The translations under genes and the position numbers were made by a program. Under the pieces are notes generated by a model. The model was not told the origin of the DNA and did no database searches. It saw nothing but the letters and a program-made list of their open reading frames with translations. Positions 47,414 through 58,114 of a stretch of 64,000 nucleotides of DNA are shown piece by piece. The first letter of the stretch is position 1. Each line of letters opens with the position of its first letter. Origin of the DNA: Candidatus Desulfopertinax cowenii (GTDB lineage Bacteria; Bacillota; Desulfotomaculia; Desulfotomaculales; Desulforudaceae). Location of the stretch: the NCBI GenBank assembly GCA_001899445.1, contig MPOA01000001.1, positions 212,564-276,563 of the forward strand. Reading direction: 5' to 3'.

Positions 47414-49406
47414 CTTCGCCTCCTTTGTCGGAGAAAATGGGCAGGCAAACCTCAAATTTCAGGCGTTTATCCTTGGTTAAAACCGCCTCTACGCGTCCCC
47501 CATGATCCTCAATGATCTTGCGGCTTACCGGAAGCTTGAGTGAAATATAGGAGTCCTGCCGCGCGCAGAGTGGATCAAACACCCTCTTCACCTCCTCGCT
47601 CCCTACCTTTGTTTTGGAGTCCCAGAAACCGATGGATACCCCCCCGCACCCGAACAGCGCCTGATCGTAAGCCGTCTGAACGTGCAGGGTCCCCTCCACT
47701 TCCATGGACTGGAAATAGTTTAACAGGTACGAAAAAGCTCTGGCTAGGAGAGTTTTGTCCGCCCGGATGTGCAGGCGCTCCCCGAAGTAAGAGGTATCCA
47801 CGGTTGTTTTTGCCCCTTTGCCCTGTTCCCGCAACAAGGACAACCCCATATCCAAGAGTTCGTGAACTTCGGCCACGGTGTACTTGTAGGTGAGAGGCGT
47901 GGAGAAAGCAATGAGCTGCTCCACCAACTCGTTCAGCCTTTTAACCTCCTGCCGGACGGTTTGGGTAAAGAAGTCGCGGAAAGAACTGTCGTGATACTTT
48001 TCCGGCAAGAGTTCCGAAAAGGTCTGAATGGCCACCATGGGGTTCTTCACTTCGTGGGCCAACTGCCCGACGAATCTGTTCAGCACGTCAAGCTGGTCTG
48101 CCCGGCACTTTTCCTGTTCAAGCTTTTTCCGCGCGGAAATATCATCAAAAATCATCACGCTCCCCAGGACCCGTTCCCCATTCACTAGCTGGTAGGTGCT
48201 GACCTCCAGGGGAACACGGCCACGCGCCAGTTCGATCTCCTCCTTATCGCAAGCCTGTCCCGTTGCCAGCGCACCGTACAACAAGTCTCCCAGCGGGCTG
48301 GGCAGATGGCGCAGATCCTTGCCCACTATTTTCTCCGGCCGCAATCCCAGGATCTCCCCGGCGCGGGCGTTAAAGGTGACCACGTTGTCATTCCCGTTGA
48401 TCGCCACCACCCCGCTGTTCATCCGCTGCAGGATGTTTTCGATGAACAGTTTCTGGTAGCGCAACTGGTGGTGCAGCTGGATGTCCCGCAAGGCCATACC
48501 GGTATTGGCGGATAAAATGTAAAGCGTCTCCAGTTCCTCTTCGTAAAAGGGTGCCCCGGTAATCTTGGGCCCCAGGTTGAGCGCGCCCATCAGCTGCCCG
48601 TGGACCGACAGCGGGATGCTGACCACAGCCTGCAGGAGCTGCATCTCCTGGAGGGCCTCGCCGGAAACAGCGCCGTTGGGACCGGGTATTTCCTCCGCCC
48701 GGAACATGCGCCCTTCCGCAATCAACCAGGAGATCAGCCCCCGGGACGGCTTGAAAACCAGCCCGGAACAGAAATCGGGGTCCAGTCCCCTTTGAGCGGA
48801 GACCAAGTAGTGACCGTAACGTTCGTTGAGCAACAAGATAGACAGCTTTCCTACGGGCACCAGTTCCGCTACGGCATCGAGGAAAAGCTCCAGGAGTTTG
48901 TCCTGATTTAAGTTGTTGGTCAACACCCTGGACAAGTCGCAGAGCACGCGTTCTTTCAGCGGGGTGGACGGGGAAGGAACACCGCCGGGCGGTACCGAGC
49001 ACCCCGGGGGCTCGGCCTTCTTCTCGGTCTTCTTTTTTAAGGACTGCAATTCAAATACCAGCTCCACCCGCTCCCAGGACCGGTCCAGCAAGCTGCGTAC
49101 CTGCCAGGAGGTAAACGGCAGGTGCAGAAAATCGTAAAAATACTTAGACATGGAATGGCTGAGGCTTGGATCGGCGGCGACCCCGAGATAAGTCAAATCA
49201 GGACGCCACCGGTACGCTTCCTCCATCCACGGCAGGACACCCGGCGTACCAATATCCACCACGACCACGCCCGAGACAATGCTCCGCAGCAGCTGCAAAC
49301 CCTTGGGGCCCATCTCGCCCTCCAGAACACTATACGTGTCCGGGATAAAATCCTTAATGGACCCGAGCGCACTTTCCTGATTGCAAATCAGGAGCACCAA
49401 TTTCAA
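47394..49406 (-). CDS. GAF-PAS histidine kinase with eroded ATP-binding domain
   Basis: 670 residues: an N-terminal receiver-like segment (residues 1-115), a GAF domain (about 155-305), a PAS domain (about 325-435) and a HisKA with QLAHEVKNPMVAIQTFSELL. In the HATPase the N-box (LLNYFQSM) keeps its Asn, but the G1 box is WDSKTKVG instead of DxGxG and the G2 box is SYISLKLPVS instead of GTGLGLAIS, so ATP binding is probably lost. It is a paralogue of the upstream kinase: the HisKA, GAF and PAS parts align (LLPEKY occurs in both). It overlaps the upstream kinase by four bases and may be a sensor partner or scaffold. Confidence 0.85.
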   Translation of the reverse strand: MKLVLLICNQESALGSIKDFIPDTYSVLEGEMGPKGLQLLRSIVSGVVVVDIGTPGVLPWMEEAYRWRPDLTYLGVAADPSLSHSMSKYFYDFLHLPFTSWQVRSLLDRSWERVELVFELQSLKKKTEKKAEPPGCSVPPGGVPSPSTPLKERVLCDLSRVLTNNLNQDKLLELFLDAVAELVPVGKLSILLLNERYGHYLVSAQRGLDPDFCSGLVFKPSRGLISWLIAEGRMFRAEEIPGPNGAVSGEALQEMQLLQAVVSIPLSVHGQLMGALNLGPKITGAPFYEEELETLYILSANTGMALRDIQLHHQLRYQKLFIENILQRMNSGVVAINGNDNVVTFNARAGEILGLRPEKIVGKDLRHLPSPLGDLLYGALATGQACDKEEIELARGRVPLEVSTYQLVNGERVLGSVMIFDDISARKKLEQEKCRADQLDVLNRFVGQLAHEVKNPMVAIQTFSELLPEKYHDSSFRDFFTQTVRQEVKRLNELVEQLIAFSTPLTYKYTVAEVHELLDMGLSLLREQGKGAKTTVDTSYFGERLHIRADKTLLARAFSYLLNYFQSMEVEGTLHVQTAYDQALFGCGGVSIGFWDSKTKVGSEEVKRVFDPLCARQDSYISLKLPVSRKIIEDHGGRVEAVLTKDKRLKFEVCLPIFSDKGGEGVGGTR

Positions 49407-51946
49407 AGCGGATCTCTCCCCCAGTCAAATTCCACTTCCCGCCCGCGGAATAGATCGCGGGACCCAGGCCACTTTTCTATCCCCGGCGGGAGGCAAATCT
49501 CAAATGCCGCTCCCTCGCCGTCACCGCTGCGGATCTGGATGGTTCCCCCGTGATCCCCAATGATCTTGTGGCTGATGCTCAGCCCGATCCCCACCCCGTC
49601 GGCCTTGGTGGTGAAAAACGGATCGAAGACTTTGTCTTTCTGATGGGCGGAAATTCCCACTCCCGTGTCCTCGATAAGGATCTTTACCTTCCCTCCCGGA
49701 GCAACAGCGCCGGCACTCTCGTCATCCGCAGCCGGAACGGACAGCACACTCACCCTCAGTTCCCCGCCCTCCGGCATGGCCTGGATACTATTCAGGCAGA
49801 TATTGAAAACCGCCTGCTTCAACTGGTTTCTATCCGCCCATACCGCGGGGACCACCGGGTCATAATGCCTGAAGACTCGAATCTTATGGGCGTCAATCTG
49901 GGGGGATAGCAGGAGAAGTATCTCGTCCATCAGGCTCGTCATATCAACCGTTTCGCAGCTCAGCGGAGAGTTCTTGGAGAAATTCAGCAGTTCGGCGAGC
50001 AGCCTGTTGATGCGCTCTATTTCCTGGGAGACTATCCGGGAAAAACTGTAGCGGAACTCGTGGTTATCATATTTTTCCGGCAGCAGTTCGGCAAACGTCT
50101 TGATCGAGACCAGGGGGTTTTTTATCTCGTGCGCCAATCCGGCCGCCACCTCCCCCAGAAACGCGAGCCGCTGGATCCAGCTTTTCTCCTGTTCCAGCTC
50201 CTTGATGCGGGTCACATCACTCAGCACCAAGATGGCGCCGCGTTCACCCGTCTCCGGCAATTCCATTACCGCCGTGCTGCAACACACAAAGCGGGTAAAG
50301 CCGTCCGCCGGCATCTCCACTTCCACGTCACTGCTTCCCCGTCCGCGCTCCATAACCTGGCCCAGCAGCGTGCACAGCTCGCGGCTGAGAACCTCTTCTA
50401 TTTTCTGGCCTATGACGGCGCTGGCAGACTGCCCGGTAAGCTTCTCCGCAGCGCCGTTAAAGGTAGTGATTCTCCCCTGGGCATCCACGGCGATCAAACC
50501 GTTGCCCATGTTTTCCAAGATGTTCTCCAAATACCGCTTGATCGTCAGCACTTCTTGATAAAGCTGCGCGTTTCTTAAACAGACTGTGACTTGGAACGCC
50601 AAAGCAGTTAACAGTTTTACGTCCTCTCTCGAATAAGGTTCCCCAGACAACTTGGGGCCCAAGCAGAAGAAACCTACCATTTCTCCTTCCATCATCATTG
50701 GGACCGCAGCCTCGGCCTGCAATCTCTGCATCTCAGTTATCAGAGATTCCCCTTCTTTTCGGTGCGTAATCACCCTTAAATCTGTTTGTAACAACACCTC
50801 ACCGTGATTCACCAGATACTTGACAAACGAATCATCATCGGTCAAAATCTGTTTATCTTGTGTTTCGATTGCAAAATTTTTATTGCCTGCAGCAGCAACC
50901 GCAACAAAACGGTTGCCTTTTTTTAGCAGAAAAACACCGCCATCCAGGTACATGTTGTTAACAATAGTACCAATCACAAATTGGAGCAGATCCCTCAAAT
51001 CCAAGAAGGAGATCATTGCTCTGCTACTTTTCAGCAAGGTTGCGTAATAATCATATGCCCCACGGTAGACGTATTTGTCAATTAACGTTTGTACAACTCC
51101 CTTTAACGACTGGAACAATGAAGCTACCAGTAATGCTACAGCACCAACCACAACGTAGAGGGGAAAATCTGCAAGCGGAATGCCTAGCCCCTCAATAAAA
51201 TAGAAAGACAGTATAACTATTCCTGACAAAACTGCCAATGCTACTACAAATGCAAGCCCTTTACGAAGGGCAAAATGAACATCCATAAGACGATATTTAA
51301 CAATGGCATAACCTATAGAAGCAACCATGATAATACTGAAAACAGGTCCAAAGTTGCGCAAATCTAGGATCGTAACGTCGAGCAAAGGGAAAAACAGGTT
51401 AGCAATACTCCCCAACAAAGTCGAAATCGTGATACCACCGACAAAATATCGTAGTTGCAAACGTAACAGGCCTCGAGCAGAACGCATCATCCTAAATAGC
51501 TTAATAATGCCGTAAGTCATTATGCCAACAAAGAACAATACATAGAGAGAAAAGAGAGAGCCATATGCCAAGTGTTTGTTATGTAAGGGCATTTCCATAT
51601 CCGCGATAATAAAGGGTGTAAAGCTCAAACCTGCCATAGCCACGCTAAGTAATAGCGTTGTGTGTAGTATCACTTTGACTTGTTTGGAAAAAACTGAAGT
51701 GCCAGCCGAAAAAGTGAATGCCAGGGCAAACACAAACCACGGAATAACCACCGCCGCAGCGTGGGAAAACCGGATCCAAAACAGTATCTGTTCGTAGTCG
51801 TGATGTACTACTACCATCAATACTGCGAAGCTCCACAGACTGAGACTAATTGTCAACCCCAAAAAGAAGCGGTTTACAACAGTCACTGGGTTCTTTGCAA
51901 ACACTAATAGTCCCAAAACAAGGTTTGTTATGGAAGTCAAAGCCAA
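49403..51946 (-). CDS. 7TM-GAF-PAS sensor histidine kinase
   Basis: 847 residues: about eight membrane helices in the first 290 residues (LTSITNLVLGLLVFAKNP at the start), a GAF domain (about 310-465), PAS (about 475-590), HisKA (GLAHEIKNPLVSIKTFAELLPEKY) and an intact HATPase (CLNSIQAMPEGG, IEDTGVGISAHQ, GVGIGLSISHKIIGDHGG). The N-terminal region resembles the 7TM type of sensor. The TTG at 51946 is a poor start; a CTG at 51970 with an AGAGGAG site nine bases upstream would give a more complete first helix. It follows the ketosynthase-like gene by 20 bases or less and is more A/T-rich than its neighbours. Confidence 0.88.
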   Translation of the reverse strand: MALTSITNLVLGLLVFAKNPVTVVNRFFLGLTISLSLWSFAVLMVVVHHDYEQILFWIRFSHAAAVVIPWFVFALAFTFSAGTSVFSKQVKVILHTTLLLSVAMAGLSFTPFIIADMEMPLHNKHLAYGSLFSLYVLFFVGIMTYGIIKLFRMMRSARGLLRLQLRYFVGGITISTLLGSIANLFFPLLDVTILDLRNFGPVFSIIMVASIGYAIVKYRLMDVHFALRKGLAFVVALAVLSGIVILSFYFIEGLGIPLADFPLYVVVGAVALLVASLFQSLKGVVQTLIDKYVYRGAYDYYATLLKSSRAMISFLDLRDLLQFVIGTIVNNMYLDGGVFLLKKGNRFVAVAAAGNKNFAIETQDKQILTDDDSFVKYLVNHGEVLLQTDLRVITHRKEGESLITEMQRLQAEAAVPMMMEGEMVGFFCLGPKLSGEPYSREDVKLLTALAFQVTVCLRNAQLYQEVLTIKRYLENILENMGNGLIAVDAQGRITTFNGAAEKLTGQSASAVIGQKIEEVLSRELCTLLGQVMERGRGSSDVEVEMPADGFTRFVCCSTAVMELPETGERGAILVLSDVTRIKELEQEKSWIQRLAFLGEVAAGLAHEIKNPLVSIKTFAELLPEKYDNHEFRYSFSRIVSQEIERINRLLAELLNFSKNSPLSCETVDMTSLMDEILLLLSPQIDAHKIRVFRHYDPVVPAVWADRNQLKQAVFNICLNSIQAMPEGGELRVSVLSVPAADDESAGAVAPGGKVKILIEDTGVGISAHQKDKVFDPFFTTKADGVGIGLSISHKIIGDHGGTIQIRSGDGEGAAFEICLPPGIEKWPGSRDLFRGREVEFDWGRDPL

Positions 51947-51966
51947 TAGCCAGATGCTCGGGTCCT

Positions 51967-53220
51967 TCAGGTGAGACCACTCCTCTTGGCAGGCGTGTAA
52001 ATAGGCCGAGTAATAATCATTGCCGCATTGCTGCCGCCGAATCCATGCAAGTTCACCATTACAGTATCCACCCGTGCAGTTCGTCCCCGACAGGGAACGT
52101 AATCCAGGTCACAACGCGGATCGGGATACTCGTAGTTGATCGTTGGGGGAACAAAACCATCCTGAATGGCCAGCACACCAGTTATGAGCTGTAACGGACC
52201 CGCAGCCGCTAACGGATTACCGATCATGGACTTTATTGAGCTCACGGGAACATTGTAAGCGTAGTCGCCGCACAGTTCCTTAATTGCTTCTGTTTCCGCC
52301 CTATCAACCATCGGGTCCCCCGGCGCGTGCGCACAAATGTAGTCAACATTAAACGGGTTCAAACCAGACCGCTGCAGGGCTTGAAACATGGAAGAGTACA
52401 TTGATAAGCGCAGGTCTCTCAATGACGAAGCGTTAGACACTCCCCAGCCGGCGATACGGGCATAAACCCTGGCCCCCCGCCGGCGGGCGCTCTCCGCCTC
52501 TTCCAGTACGAGTACGCCTGCTCCTTCAGCCAGAACTCCTCCCTCTCTGTGCAAATCAAATGGACGGCTGGCTTTCTCCGGCATATCATTGAAGCCGTTG
52601 GGTAATACTCCGGAAGCACAAAAACTAGCAAAAAGCAAGGGTGTCAAGGGAGCATCAACTCCGCCGGCAATCATGATTTCCGCTTCCCCGTTCAACAGGC
52701 ACTCAGTGGCATAAATTACGCTGTACAATCCTGACGGGCATCCGGTAGAAATAGTGGATACGTTACCCCGACAGTTTATTGCCTTCGCAATCTGACCAGC
52801 GGAAGCGTGTGGAAAGCACGACACAATTGCCGTTGGTGTCATCTCCTTTTTTTCTATGAACAATAGGTGCTCCCTCTGCACAATTCCTATGTCTGAGGTG
52901 CTTATCCCCACAGAAACGCCACACGACCGGCAAGCCAGATCATCGAGTGTCAAACCAGCATCATCCAGAGCTAACCAGGCAGCTGCCAAAGCCAATTCGC
53001 TACTCCTGGAATCGCGGTGGCCATTAAGAAGAGGGTTCTGCATCAACTTCAACGAATCCATCGGGACCTCGCCTGCAATCTGGCAGCGATATTCGGTCGG
53101 GTCAAATGCGGTGATCCGGCGAATTCCCGACTCTCCCTTTTTCAGGGCTTCCCAAAACTGTGTTTTCCCCACCCCGTTTGGGGCCACCGGACCCAAGCCG
53201 GTAATGACCACCTCAGGCAA
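51967..53220 (-). CDS. Beta-ketoacyl synthase (KAS II/FabF-like) with Cys-His-Asn active site
   Basis: 417 residues with the thiolase-like fold of KAS II: VVITGLGPVAPNGVG, then nucleophile Cys161 in STGCPSG, His298 in ICAHAPGDP, Lys330 in SSIKSMIGN and then Asn335 where FabF has the second His. So the triad is Cys-His-Asn, as in KAS III. The flanking GAAG is GPLAAAG-like and shortened. Start TTG at 53220 after GGTGGGCAGGTC; it overlaps the methyltransferase stop by 8 bases. No ACP or other fatty-acid gene is near. It probably condenses or hydrolyses some acyl-ACP or acyl-CoA in the signal operon. Region is A/T-rich for the window. Confidence 0.88.
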   Translation of the reverse strand: MPEVVITGLGPVAPNGVGKTQFWEALKKGESGIRRITAFDPTEYRCQIAGEVPMDSLKLMQNPLLNGHRDSRSSELALAAAWLALDDAGLTLDDLACRSCGVSVGISTSDIGIVQREHLLFIEKKEMTPTAIVSCFPHASAGQIAKAINCRGNVSTISTGCPSGLYSVIYATECLLNGEAEIMIAGGVDAPLTPLLFASFCASGVLPNGFNDMPEKASRPFDLHREGGVLAEGAGVLVLEEAESARRRGARVYARIAGWGVSNASSLRDLRLSMYSSMFQALQRSGLNPFNVDYICAHAPGDPMVDRAETEAIKELCGDYAYNVPVSSIKSMIGNPLAAAGPLQLITGVLAIQDGFVPPTINYEYPDPRCDLDYVPCRGRTARVDTVMVNLHGFGGSNAAMIITRPIYTPAKRSGLT

Positions 53221-53995
53221 GACCTGCCCACCTCTCCCTTTGGAAAATAGAAGCAACGTCCTCCTGGGAAGAATCTTTTGTCCCGGTTAAAAACAAGCAC
53301 TGTGCTCCGTAAACCTTTTCCACGTGACCGACTGTAAAACCGGCGTCACCTACCAAAGACTGTAATTCCTGGTCCTGGAAAAAGTGGAACGACTGTTGCT
53401 GCTGGATATAGCCGTTGATTATTAAAGACACGATTACAGCTGGGGCCAACGCCGTGATTTGACCGGCCAAGGCCACGGGCCAGAAGAAAGGGTTCCTTTT
53501 CCGCAACTCGCGAACGTGTTCGCTGAAGATGCGGCTCATTTTCGGCTGATAGGACGGAGTTACCAAAAGGAGCCTGCCGCCTTCTTTTAGTACCCGATAG
53601 ATCTCCCGCAACAAAAACCCCGGCCGATCCACCGCGTAGAGCACATTCACACATACCACCGCGTCAAACTCCCCGGCGGCGAACGGGAGAGGGTAGTTTA
53701 AATCCCCTTCCCGCAGGGTAACTCCCCGGTTTTCTTTAAGTTTCACCTGCGCCCGACTCAACATGGCCGGCGAAAAGTCAATCCCTACCGCCTGGATTTC
53801 CGATCGGGAGCGAGCAATACGGGCCAGCAGGTTCCCCGTGCCGCAACCGGCGTCTAAAATTTTCCAATTAACCGCCGGGTTAAGATTGTTGGCCACCAGG
53901 TCCAGCAATCTTCGATAGGGCAGGAATCTTAACAGTATTGAGTCGTAAACCCGCGCGTAAATCCGCCATAGCAACGGTTCAAACTTTTTGCCCAC
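53213..53995 (-). CDS. SAM-dependent class I methyltransferase
   Basis: 260 residues. SAM motifs: ILDAGCGTGNLLARIA (motif I), VGIDFSPAMLSRA (motif II) and the FDAVVCVNVLYAVD segment (motif IV). A hydrophobic stretch (FWPVALAGQITALAPAVIVSLIINGYI) near residue 170 may bind a membrane or a lipidic substrate. Start GTG at 53995 after GGAAGGGGG. It lies 19 bases after the SelA-like chimera and overlaps the ketosynthase gene. Substrate unknown; a small molecule or acyl substrate is inferred from the neighbour. Confidence 0.82.
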   Translation of the reverse strand: MGKKFEPLLWRIYARVYDSILLRFLPYRRLLDLVANNLNPAVNWKILDAGCGTGNLLARIARSRSEIQAVGIDFSPAMLSRAQVKLKENRGVTLREGDLNYPLPFAAGEFDAVVCVNVLYAVDRPGFLLREIYRVLKEGGRLLLVTPSYQPKMSRIFSEHVRELRKRNPFFWPVALAGQITALAPAVIVSLIINGYIQQQQSFHFFQDQELQSLVGDAGFTVGHVEKVYGAQCLFLTGTKDSSQEDVASIFQRERWAGLA

Positions 53996-54014
53996 GGCAA
54001 CCCCCTTCCGGAAG

Positions 54015-56606
54015 TTACATCAGGTACTCCTGGTTGAACAGGCTGACAAAAATATCCACCAGCCGGGGGTCGAACTGGGTGCCCCCGCGCCTTTTCAGTT
54101 CCGCAAGCGCCTCTTCGTGGGACAGAGGCCGACGGTAAGGTCTGGGGCTGGTCATCGCTTGGTAAGCGTCAGCAATGGCCAGAATACGGGCGTAAAGATG
54201 GATGTCTTTCCCCTTCAAGCCTTGGGGGTAACCGCTCCCGTCCCACCATTCGTGATGTTGCAGGACATAATCCGCGAGGATGGCCGTTTCGGGCGAAAAA
54301 CGGACAATGCGGCTGCCAACCTCGGAATGCCGCTTGATTTCCTCCCACTCCTTGCTGCTCAGGGTCCCGTCTTTCAAGATAATCGCCTCATCAATGCCGA
54401 CCTTGCCGACGTCGTACACTTTGGATAATAGCAACAGGCTCTTGATTCCTTCGGGAGACAGACCCAGAGTTCGCCCCAGCAGCTGCACGATGCGTTGCAA
54501 CCGCACGGCGTGACCTTCGTCCACCACGCCCTTCTTCGCGAGCAGGTTCAGGAAGAAATCAACTACCTTACCCTCAGACAACCCGCTACGCCGCAGCTTG
54601 CTTTCGTACATGTTGTCGCCGGCCCGCTTGTATACCGCCTGAATACCCTGGGACGGTTCCGTACCCGTGGCGAAACCCACGGAAAGACTCAGGGGGAGGC
54701 CTGATTTTGTCCGGTTATACTCTTCCACCGCCTTTTCTATCCGTTCGCAAACTTCGCGGGCCGTCTGTTCATCAGTCTTTGGCAAAACAACCGCAAATTC
54801 GTCGCCTCCAATCCGGGCCACCACATCCGAAATGCAGAAAGGTTTCTTGATTGTGGCGGCCGCAATCCTGAGCAACTCATCCCCCTTGTCGTGCCCAAGG
54901 GTATCGTTGATCAGTTTCAGCTCGTCCACATTGCAAACCACGAAGCTCATCGGGTAGTGGCGGTCCGTATCCAGCCGGCGCATTTCCTCTTCAAAGTAGG
55001 CCCGGTTGTAAAGGCCGGTCAACGGGTCGTGCATACTGCTGTGCTTCAGTTCTTCCTCGGTACGCTTGCGCCCCGTTACGTCATTCGCGCTAAACGTCAC
55101 CCGTCCGACCTTCCCCTGGTCGGTGAAACCGGGTGCCAGCTTTATGTCCAGCCATCTATCCTCCCCAGCGGGGCCTTCAATCCTGATTTCAATGCTGGTC
55201 TCTTCGCCGGTGTTCAGGACGGAGTTCAAACTCTCTCGAATAGCCACGGCCGCTTTAGGTCCGATCACGTCCTCTATTTTCCGGCCTAGCAAATGTTCGT
55301 TCTCCGTTCTCCATAACCCCACGCCCGCTTTGTTGGCAAAAACGAAAGCGCCTCGGTAATCAAGGACCCAGATCGGGTTGGCAACGGTGTCGAGCACCTG
55401 CATTTCCCGCTCCCGGCCACCACTCAGGGAGGCGATCAGCGAACCGAGCAGCGCTTCGTCGTCCTCTTCCGGGACCGACCTCAGATCCAGCAGGATTCCT
55501 TCCTTGCTTATCCGGGCCACCACTGGCGGATCGCCTTTGGCTAACAACGCGGCCAGTTGCCTGCCGGAAAGCCGGGCACAACTTATTTCCACCCGGAAGC
55601 TGGGTAACGTGCCCAGGCCGGGATTTCTGTCCGCGAGCAACGTTTCCCCGGCCGTCACCTGGACCCGGTAAAGCCCTCCCAGGCTTGCGTTCAGTTCGCC
55701 GGCCAATCTCTCGGCGCGCTGCCCGATGCCGGCAACCGGGGCCGCAATGGCGCGCAGCAAAGGAATGGTCTGCAGCGCTGTTTCCTGGTCCAGGTACTGT
55801 TCAAGAGTAGCCTCGAAAGCCGCCACAGCCATTTTGTCGGCCCGCACGGCCGCGGCCAAAGGTGCTCTCCGGAGCTTGGAAAGGTAACGGTGCCGGCCAA
55901 CAACAACGCCTACCGGGGGCCCGCCCAGGAACCTGTCACCGCGGAAAACGACTACGTCAAAACCGGCCGCGACAAAGTCTTGGATCCGCAGTCTTCCGGC
56001 CAACCCGAAAGGTGTCAGATCAACCAGTGTCGCGTGGCCCAGCATCTTCACGATGGAAATATCCCGTTCCCGCCCCAGCCCCGCCAGCTCAGCGTCCGCA
56101 CGCGCCCCGGCGAACGAATCATCCTCTCTGTCGCTGCTCAAGATGAACGCCACATCATCGCCCACCACGTCGCGGTAGTCTTTCGGGATAGCAGCTTTAT
56201 CTACCCTTTTCAGGCATACCCCACTGCAGCCCAGAACATTGAACAGGGAAGGAGAAAACTCGTCCGGAAACACCTCTTCCCCGCAGACGATGATCTGTTG
56301 ACTACGCCCTGCGTTCTGCACCACGGTATGCAACACCAGAAGGGACGCCGCTTGAACGTTATTCACGACCAACGCATCTTCGGCCCCGGTAAGGTTGCGA
56401 AGAAGGTCAATCACGTTTTCGCTGCCAGACGGGAGCATCTCGGAAACCAGCAGTTCTTCGGCCGTGCCCGACCACGCCGCCATCTCCACCGCTTTGACCG
56501 CCGCCTGGGCCAGAGGTGGTTGCAAACCGCCGTGCAGGATTATACCGGTGGCGTTGACCGGTGGACGCCAAAGGGGCTGTCCATTCATTTTTTCCCCGTT
56601 CATCAC
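54015..56606 (-). CDS. SelA-like pseudoenzyme fused to PAS, GGDEF and HD-GYP domains
   Basis: 863 residues. Residues 15-390 align with SelA, the PLP-dependent selenocysteine synthase: VNATGIILH, VVNNVQAASLLVLH, DLTPFGLAGR, FLGGPPVGVVVGR, VRADKMAVAAFEATL and AKGDPPVVARI-GILLDLRSVPEED. The PLP lysine site (FSGDKLLGG in SelA) is FRGDRFLGG here, so Arg225 replaces Lys; the N-terminal tRNA-binding part is missing. Then PAS (about 400-510), GGDEF (diguanylate cyclase motif intact at 600-604, no RxxD inhibitory site) and HD-GYP-like (HD replaced by YD at 731-732; GYP at 792-794 intact). It follows the 503-residue gene by a four-base overlap. The SelA part should be a ligand or protein sensor, not an enzyme. 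Confidence 0.85.
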   Translation of the reverse strand: MMNGEKMNGQPLWRPPVNATGIILHGGLQPPLAQAAVKAVEMAAWSGTAEELLVSEMLPSGSENVIDLLRNLTGAEDALVVNNVQAASLLVLHTVVQNAGRSQQIIVCGEEVFPDEFSPSLFNVLGCSGVCLKRVDKAAIPKDYRDVVGDDVAFILSSDREDDSFAGARADAELAGLGRERDISIVKMLGHATLVDLTPFGLAGRLRIQDFVAAGFDVVVFRGDRFLGGPPVGVVVGRHRYLSKLRRAPLAAAVRADKMAVAAFEATLEQYLDQETALQTIPLLRAIAAPVAGIGQRAERLAGELNASLGGLYRVQVTAGETLLADRNPGLGTLPSFRVEISCARLSGRQLAALLAKGDPPVVARISKEGILLDLRSVPEEDDEALLGSLIASLSGGREREMQVLDTVANPIWVLDYRGAFVFANKAGVGLWRTENEHLLGRKIEDVIGPKAAVAIRESLNSVLNTGEETSIEIRIEGPAGEDRWLDIKLAPGFTDQGKVGRVTFSANDVTGRKRTEEELKHSSMHDPLTGLYNRAYFEEEMRRLDTDRHYPMSFVVCNVDELKLINDTLGHDKGDELLRIAAATIKKPFCISDVVARIGGDEFAVVLPKTDEQTAREVCERIEKAVEEYNRTKSGLPLSLSVGFATGTEPSQGIQAVYKRAGDNMYESKLRRSGLSEGKVVDFFLNLLAKKGVVDEGHAVRLQRIVQLLGRTLGLSPEGIKSLLLLSKVYDVGKVGIDEAIILKDGTLSSKEWEEIKRHSEVGSRIVRFSPETAILADYVLQHHEWWDGSGYPQGLKGKDIHLYARILAIADAYQAMTSPRPYRRPLSHEEALAELKRRGGTQFDPRLVDIFVSLFNQEYLM

Positions 56607-58114
56607 CCAGCCTCCGGATCTTTCTTCTCCAACCGGTCAAAGAAAGTATCCCGGATAAACTTCTTTTCCTGTGGGGTCAGGATTCCGTCGTCACCCCACA
56701 GCCGATCGAGTTCGGCGGACTCAGCCGCAAGCATCTCCGCAAATCTGCCTTTTTCCACTGCCCCCTCCCGCTGTTCCGCCGGCAGATCGTCCAGGAGCTC
56801 CACCAACGCTTTTCCCAGGCGCTCGATGGCCTCCGCTGGGGGCATCCAGAACGGCTCAAGCTTCAACTGGGGATGTTTGCCACACTCCCGGGCCGCCAAT
56901 TCCTCCGCCCCCGGGGCTGTTTTCCGGTCCCGCCGCAGGAACTCTTCCAGTAGGGCCAGGGCGTGACCGCACAGGCTCACCCCCGCAGCCACCAGGGGAT
57001 GATCCGGATACTGCCGAAGTACTCCGTCGAGATCGTCCCTGGCCGCCTGCAGAAACTTGCGCAGCTCATCGTGCCCGGGGGCGGCCGCTTGTTTCCGGGC
57101 CTCTGTTAGGCGCGCTTGAAGCCCCAGCCACCGCTCCACCAGGTCCAGTACTTCCCTCAGGCGGGCCAAGACCTGCCAGGACCCCAAAATATGAAAGATA
57201 TCCAGCTGCGCGTCCATCTCCTGCATCCGGCGATAAAGCCGCGCAATTTCACTTTTCAGTTCATCCTCGTCGCGCAGCCGGTTGACCAGGCTGCGGATCT
57301 CGTCCGCGGCCGCGGTGTCCTTTTCGATGACGGGGCGGAGCAAACGCTGGAGCAATTCACCCTCTTTCTGCATTGTTTTCCAGAGTTTGGCGGCCAGCGG
57401 GGCAACCATGTACAGCTTTCGGTTGTGCCGTTGCCAACTCCGCGCCTCAGCGGATAGTGCTTCCAGTTCCTTTTCCCAGCCGGGATCCGCCTGTCCCCGG
57501 CCCGCCAGAAGGTCACCTACCGCCGCGATCCCCGGGGGCAGGTCGTCCAGCCCGGCCAACGCCTCCGGGGCACCGCTTCCGGGCGCTGCCAGCGCCGGCC
57601 GCAGCAACGCCGCGACCATCAGGAGATTCAGGGCCAACCTGCCAGCCTCACCAGGCTGACCCGCGCGCACCTCCCTGAAATCGGGGTGCCGATAGGCGTG
57701 GGCAAGCCACCGCGCAGCCGGACCGCCATCCCCTTCGATTATGTCGGCCAGTTCCACCGCTTTGATCAATACGGGCGGCGCCGGGGGAGCCCCGAACTTC
57801 TGCTTGTGGTAACAGGCCAACCAGTAAGCCGGCTCCAACCGCCGTTCCCTAAGGAGAGCACAGATCAATCCAGACAGCCGTACCCGTGCCGCCTGCGCTT
57901 CTATCCCGTCCGGCGCCTGTTCCAGCTCTTGTTCCAGAAAATCGAAGCTTCGTACCGCTTCCGACAGCTCCTCTATCAAGGTAGGGTCCGGAGGGCAGCC
58001 AGGGTTCCTGAGCCTCGCCTCTACGGTCGCCAGTTTCCGCCCCAATTGGTCAAAGCTGTTTTTAAGTTCCGCCAGGCGCCGTTGCAGTTCAGCCAACTGC
58101 TTACTGGGGTCCAT
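56603..58114 (-). CDS. Helical protein of unknown family, partner of the SelA-like chimera
   Basis: 503 residues, nearly all predicted helix, rich in Leu, Ala, Arg and Glu. Coiled-coil stretches include residues 1-50 (LAELQRRLAELKNSF) and 300-360. No known domain is recognised, and there is no signal peptide or membrane helix. The stop overlaps the start of the SelA-like chimera by four bases (ATGA), so it is coupled to it. It is the first gene of the seven-gene run, with 280 bases of non-coding DNA before the 3D-domain gene. Confidence 0.55.
   Translation of the reverse strand: MDPSKQLAELQRRLAELKNSFDQLGRKLATVEARLRNPGCPPDPTLIEELSEAVRSFDFLEQELEQAPDGIEAQAARVRLSGLICALLRERRLEPAYWLACYHKQKFGAPPAPPVLIKAVELADIIEGDGGPAARWLAHAYRHPDFREVRAGQPGEAGRLALNLLMVAALLRPALAAPGSGAPEALAGLDDLPPGIAAVGDLLAGRGQADPGWEKELEALSAEARSWQRHNRKLYMVAPLAAKLWKTMQKEGELLQRLLRPVIEKDTAAADEIRSLVNRLRDEDELKSEIARLYRRMQEMDAQLDIFHILGSWQVLARLREVLDLVERWLGLQARLTEARKQAAAPGHDELRKFLQAARDDLDGVLRQYPDHPLVAAGVSLCGHALALLEEFLRRDRKTAPGAEELAARECGKHPQLKLEPFWMPPAEAIERLGKALVELLDDLPAEQREGAVEKGRFAEMLAAESAELDRLWGDDGILTPQEKKFIRDTFFDRLEKKDPEAG

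Follow-up and report, generated by a model that had tools for sequence, protein, structure and literature searches.

Bacterial selenocysteine synthase, SelA (TIGR00474; structures 3w1h and 8uzw), is an oligomer of dimers (PMC4607533). Several relatives, namely H. pylori SelA, the DgaE/selA_rel proteins and MJ0158, lack the tRNA-binding domain; among these, H. pylori SelA retains Lys285 and Arg86/312/315 (PMC4607533). In the MocR/GabR regulators, a fold-type I PLP-enzyme domain sits inside a regulatory protein; GabR binds PLP, and the output is a DNA-binding domain. Degenerate GGDEF and HD-GYP proteins have exchanged catalytic residues yet preserve their fold and some of the nucleotide pocket. 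Metabolic enzymes serving as regulatory domains are already known, but the literature searched contained no paper in which SelA is joined with a GGDEF or other second-messenger protein.

The protein described here has the bacterial SelA fold. It differs from bacterial SelA in lacking the tRNA-binding N-terminus and the PLP lysine, and in being fused to a PAS-GGDEF-HD-GYP region. It resembles H. pylori SelA, DgaE/selA_rel and MJ0158 in having no tRNA-binding domain; unlike H. pylori SelA, it has lost the PLP lysine and is a fusion. The MocR/GabR regulators offer the nearest concept, whereas here a SelA-type domain devoid of the lysine precedes a GGDEF-HD-GYP output. Set against degenerate GGDEF and HD-GYP proteins, the fusion shows damage in both of its output domains and carries at its N-terminus a metabolic enzyme that is itself apparently dead. 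The reading we prefer, with a probability of roughly one half, is that a lineage-specific pseudoenzyme derived from SelA serves to dimerize or regulate a protein of the c-di-GMP type that is itself largely without catalysis.

The fusion gene and its neighbors

The window, meaning the whole 64,000-nucleotide stretch of DNA that was analyzed, contains the fusion as one open reading frame on the minus strand (863 amino acids, zero internal stops). The first-pass annotation had placed a SelA fold joined to GGDEF/HD-GYP at 54015-56606, and the single frame together with its Pfam domains shows this fusion to be real and correctly placed. The SelA match (PF03841, residues 17-378) has an E-value of 8e-59 and scores 200 bits against a cutoff of 22.8. 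Translation likely starts at the ATG at 56603-56601, which has GGAGG 7 nt before it; the GTG at 56606 is a possible alternative. The features are as follows.

54015..56606, minus strand: whole fusion gene, SelA-like/PAS/GGDEF/HD-GYP, one open reading frame of 863 codons
55422..56606, minus strand: putative SelA-derived pseudoenzyme domain, residues 1-395 (PF03841, TIGR00474, PDB alignment, AlphaFold2 with Foldseek, loss at conserved columns)
55932..55934, minus strand: codon AGG for Arg225, which by alignment replaces the PLP-binding lysine (A. aeolicus Lys285); DNA GGTGACAGGTTCCTGGGCGGG
55062..55391, minus strand: PAS domain, residues 406-515 (PAS_4, PF08448, E 7e-12)
54591..55034, minus strand: GGDEF domain, residues 525-672; motif intact, Asn559 for the metal Asp, Cys591 for the I-site Arg
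54060..54545, minus strand: HD-GYP domain, residues 688-849 (HD_5); Tyr731-Asp732 for His-Asp, Gly693, GYP motif intact
56603..58114, minus strand: upstream coiled-coil gene, its stop overlapping the fusion start by 4 nt; homolog only in the congener G001, disrupted there
53213..53995, minus strand: downstream SAM-dependent methyltransferase, 19 nt past the fusion
51967..53256, minus strand: beta-ketoacyl synthase, adjoining the output half in G001 too
49403..51946, minus strand: 7TM-GAF-PAS histidine kinase, last gene of this run, kept in G001

The coiled-coil, fusion, methyltransferase, beta-ketoacyl synthase and histidine kinase genes form a tightly packed run on the minus strand, 49403-58114. 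The only Rfam match within the window is a distant tRNA.

A SelA fold with an altered active site

The selA profile TIGR00474 matches residues 11-389 with 207 bits, against an equivalog cutoff of 268. Because the match begins only at model position 71, the tRNA-binding N-terminal part is absent, as had been proposed, and a score below the cutoff is what would be expected for a SelA without that part. The profile for DgaE/selA_rel, TIGR01437, gives only 26.9 bits against a subfamily cutoff of 385, so the fusion derives from the lineage of SelA proper. Identity to bacterial SelA is 32-40% over some 375 residues, with the RADK-EATL core and the C-terminal small domain kept; the translation contains both VRADKMAVAAFEATL and AKGDPPVVARI, the stretches first pointed to as SelA-like. 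By sequence, the nearest PDB chains are SelA 8uzw and A. aeolicus 3w1h (E 2e-47 for PDB SelA).

An AlphaFold2 model of the domain, built from a five-sequence alignment, has a mean pLDDT of 67 and a pTM of 0.69; a control model of a genuine SelA at the same alignment depth reached 78 and 0.78. When the predicted model was searched against the PDB with Foldseek, the top 22 chains were all SelA, followed by Cap15 and DgaE, and the best match was 8uzw_A (E 1.3e-29, TM 0.76/0.79). The structure search thus gives SelA, and not a different fold, as the best match. Extra stretches of low confidence in the fusion model, at 47-60, 322-339 and 358-363, include regions that hold invariant motifs in genuine SelA, which lends modest support to a predicted change in the active site.

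For the roles of individual residues in A. aeolicus SelA we follow PMC4607533, where Ser282 contacts the PLP phosphate and Arg86, Arg312 and Arg315 bind selenophosphate. In the alignment to this protein, Arg225 stands opposite Lys285, Ala252 replaces Arg312, Arg255 corresponds to a retained Arg315, and the loop containing Gly-Arg86 is either missing or altered. Active-site residues lost, in A. aeolicus numbering, are R86, R119, S282, K285 and R312, including two of the three selenophosphate arginines; S217, D284 and R315 remain. Met188 occupies the place of the invariant DLGSG Asp, and nothing is left of the SRGELVEIGGSFR loop and little of the GTTNKT motif. The replacement of the PLP lysine by Arg225, claimed at the outset, is thus borne out by the PDB alignment. 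That lysine is conserved across the genuine SelAs compared, and a K-to-R motif within a SelA occurs in no other of 398 genomes. One such motif, in genome G180, was rejected as a chance match in a 177-aa frame; that genome has no SelA match.

The losses extend well beyond the lysine. Among 25 SelAs, 156 alignment columns are at least 92% conserved, and the fusion retains 83 of them (53%). Genuine SelAs held out in turn mostly retain 97-100% (92-100% in 23 of the 25; 72-92% in three divergent ones). A preferential loss of polar invariant residues in the fusion was tested for and is not significant (p 0.10).

Judged by these residues, the domain is a pseudoenzyme that should neither make selenocysteine nor form a PLP Schiff base; covalent PLP chemistry and selenocysteine synthesis both appear very unlikely. 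This agrees with the original expectation for a SelA fold with arginine in place of lysine and no tRNA-binding part. The accompanying suggestion that PLP might still be held non-covalently fares worse: further PLP and selenophosphate ligands are lost, among them Ser282 and the DLGSG Asp, making PLP binding unlikely, and we regard even its non-covalent form as doubtful. That the domain is still a PLP enzyme through another lysine is hardly credible. Ten lysines are present, and Lys187 lies beside the former DLGSG Asp, but the alignment places none of the ten at a plausible PLP position; Lys258 is the RADK lysine shared with genuine SelAs, and the other PLP ligands are gone.

On contig C5, the host genome (1.78 Mb, six contigs) encodes another SelA, a 474-aa protein that has both FSGDKLLGG and the N-terminal part and scores 619 bits with the equivalog profile; its gene directly adjoins selB. 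Given this complete selA-selB pair, the fusion is not needed for Sec. The fusion is 37% identical to the genuine SelA of the cell, no closer than to other SelAs, and its branch in a tree is saturated, at a length of about 10, so its origin within SelA can be neither placed nor dated. A genuine SelA of that similarity in the same genome, from a family that assembles as an oligomer of dimers, could favor a scheme in which the SelA-like domain co-assembles with it and couples the status of selenocysteine synthesis to c-di-GMP-type signaling. We consider this highly improbable: the two loci show no genomic linkage, the fusion deviates at about half of the residues invariant in SelA, and residues in the region of dimer-dimer contact are altered or deleted, although some of these vary in the cell's genuine SelA too. 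Loss of the pentamer interface was set aside as a weak argument, two of four key positions differing in the cell's genuine SelA as well.

The output half and its counterpart in a congener

As reference for the output half we took its nearest GGDEF-HD-GYP relatives, encoded at 28 other loci. Within GGDEF, the metal Asp, the Asn and Asp that bind guanine, and the RxxD I-site are assigned the roles established for PleD. The motif itself is intact (RIGGDEF, 598-604), and Asn567, Asp568, His572 and Asp576 are also kept. The metal Asp, the first Asp of the DxD-type strand, is Asn559 in the fusion and Asp in 28 of 28 relatives and in G001, and the arginine of the inhibitory site (I-site) is Cys591. 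In the HD-GYP domain the dyad reads Tyr731-Asp732, position 731 being His in all 28 relatives, and Gly693 stands at the equivalent of PmGH D183, an Asp in 24 of the 28. The remaining metal histidines (His699, His760, His784, His785) and the GYP at 792-794 are kept. In PmGH, either H221A or D183A abolishes hydrolysis (PMC4159591).

With Asn559 in place of the metal Asp, the output half probably does not work as a diguanylate cyclase, although N559 may lower cyclase activity rather than abolish it, and Tyr731 could still serve as a metal ligand. All three enzymatic domains look degenerate, key residues being lost from SelA, GGDEF and HD-GYP alike. The first-pass annotation had cast the SelA fold as the input domain of a diguanylate cyclase; with the metal Asp, the HD His and a further catalytic Asp all replaced, the description as sensor of a cyclase should be weakened. 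Nor is the fusion the only possible source of c-di-GMP, since the genome encodes five other GGDEF proteins.

These residues also bear on a scheme in which non-covalent binding of a small ligand by the SelA fold, be it PLP, an amino acid or a phosphate compound, switches a cyclase or phosphodiesterase that is active. In its favor, the MocR/GabR regulators contain sensory domains with a PLP fold, the equivalents of Arg315, Ser217 and Asp284 are kept, neither the GGDEF nor the GYP motif is damaged, and PAS lies in between. The loss of R86, R119, S282, R312, the DLGSG Asp, the SRGELVEIGGSFR loop and most of GTTNKT, together with a catalytic residue missing from both output centers, makes such a switch distinctly unlikely.

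The syntenic locus of G001 (L053:4841-7022) has no end of the upstream gene, no SelA, no PAS and no GGDEF start. There the coiled-coil gene, broken by a stop and frame changes, runs at a clean junction into GGDEF at residue 534, and the GGDEF-HD-GYP frame has no N-terminus of its own. Because the GGDEF domain of G001 is itself truncated, deletion in G001 is likelier than insertion in the fusion species, though this is no proof of a SelA part in the ancestor. The SelA half, lacking in G001, is dispensable there. In the HD-GYP domain of G001, Tyr replaces the dyad His, and Ala stands at the PmGH D183 position instead of Asp. A YD-GYP variant of HD-GYP, with Tyr in the dyad, is present in two species of the genus (L053:6054-7022 and window 54060-54545). 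The methyltransferase of the gene run is absent from G001, where the ketosynthase and kinase still stand beside the output half.

Over 330 codons compared between the two species, the output half has a dN/dS of about 0.13-0.16, with dS near saturation; at that value, and with this caveat for dS, it appears to be under constraint despite the lost residues.

Possible roles and distribution

The main rival to our reading is decay: a SelA copy and a PAS-GGDEF-HD-GYP gene would have been joined by chance, and the product would be losing all its activities and have no present function. Key residues are gone from all three enzymatic domains; in G001, SelA, PAS and the beginning of GGDEF are missing at a clean junction, next to a broken upstream gene; the fusion is kept in no other genome searched; and the SelA branch is extremely long. 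Against decay, 863 codons are free of stops although the SelA half is extremely divergent, the gene has a plausible ribosome-binding site and is tightly coupled to its neighbors, and the dN/dS of the output half is well below 1 though the H-to-Y change is older than the split from G001. On balance we hold decay to be unlikely.

In the preferred reading, a SelA-derived module on a largely non-catalytic protein, residues 1-395 would go back to a complete bacterial SelA from which the tRNA-binding domain and the active site were lost while the fold persisted. Since SelA is built from dimers, the domain would most likely act as a dimerizing and allosteric module, its C-terminal helix leading into PAS and from there into GGDEF/HD-GYP. 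Each output domain has lost a metal ligand or catalytic residue, and the protein would for this reason more likely be a nucleotide-responsive, non-catalytic scaffold or receptor than a synthase or hydrolase of c-di-GMP. Nucleotide binding is plausible because Asn567 and Asp576 of the GTP pocket and the GGDEF and GYP motifs remain; a possible partner would be the histidine kinase of the same gene run. Dimerization, nucleotide binding and signaling by the fusion protein are what we infer from these features. The more specific idea that the non-catalytic SelA fold senses a ligand or binds a partner, reporting amino-acid, phosphate or selenium status to the GGDEF/HD-GYP protein, seems to us improbable. 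If the protein is functional, it shows that a SelA fold can persist solely in a structural or sensory capacity once most of its catalytic determinants have disappeared, and the c-di-GMP repertoire gains a new N-terminal module; generalization is limited by its occurrence in one species and by its damaged output domains.

Searches for other SelA-PAS-GGDEF fusions, as first suggested, were run over relatives, the class, the phylum and GTDB contigs, and found none. The class search, over 112 additional species from 18 families of one order, gave no ortholog and only ordinary SelAs. The matches listed from 383 other species of the phylum likewise included no fusion and only ordinary SelAs; an ortholog would rank first in this search, while an independent fusion of another SelA might escape the matches listed. 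A peptide-pattern scan of 84,980 species (GTDB contigs) returned no close relative. The fusion is real and unusual, and is so far confined to one species. Open frames of 850 aa in genomes G120 and G204 were rejected as fusions, being GC-rich read-through upstream of ordinary SelAs. Plasmid records yielded nothing but ordinary relatives of SelA, with identities of no more than 35% among the matches listed. Ordinary SelA genes are also carried by two IMG/VR contigs labeled viral (131 kb and 37 kb; L065:2477-3856 and L066).
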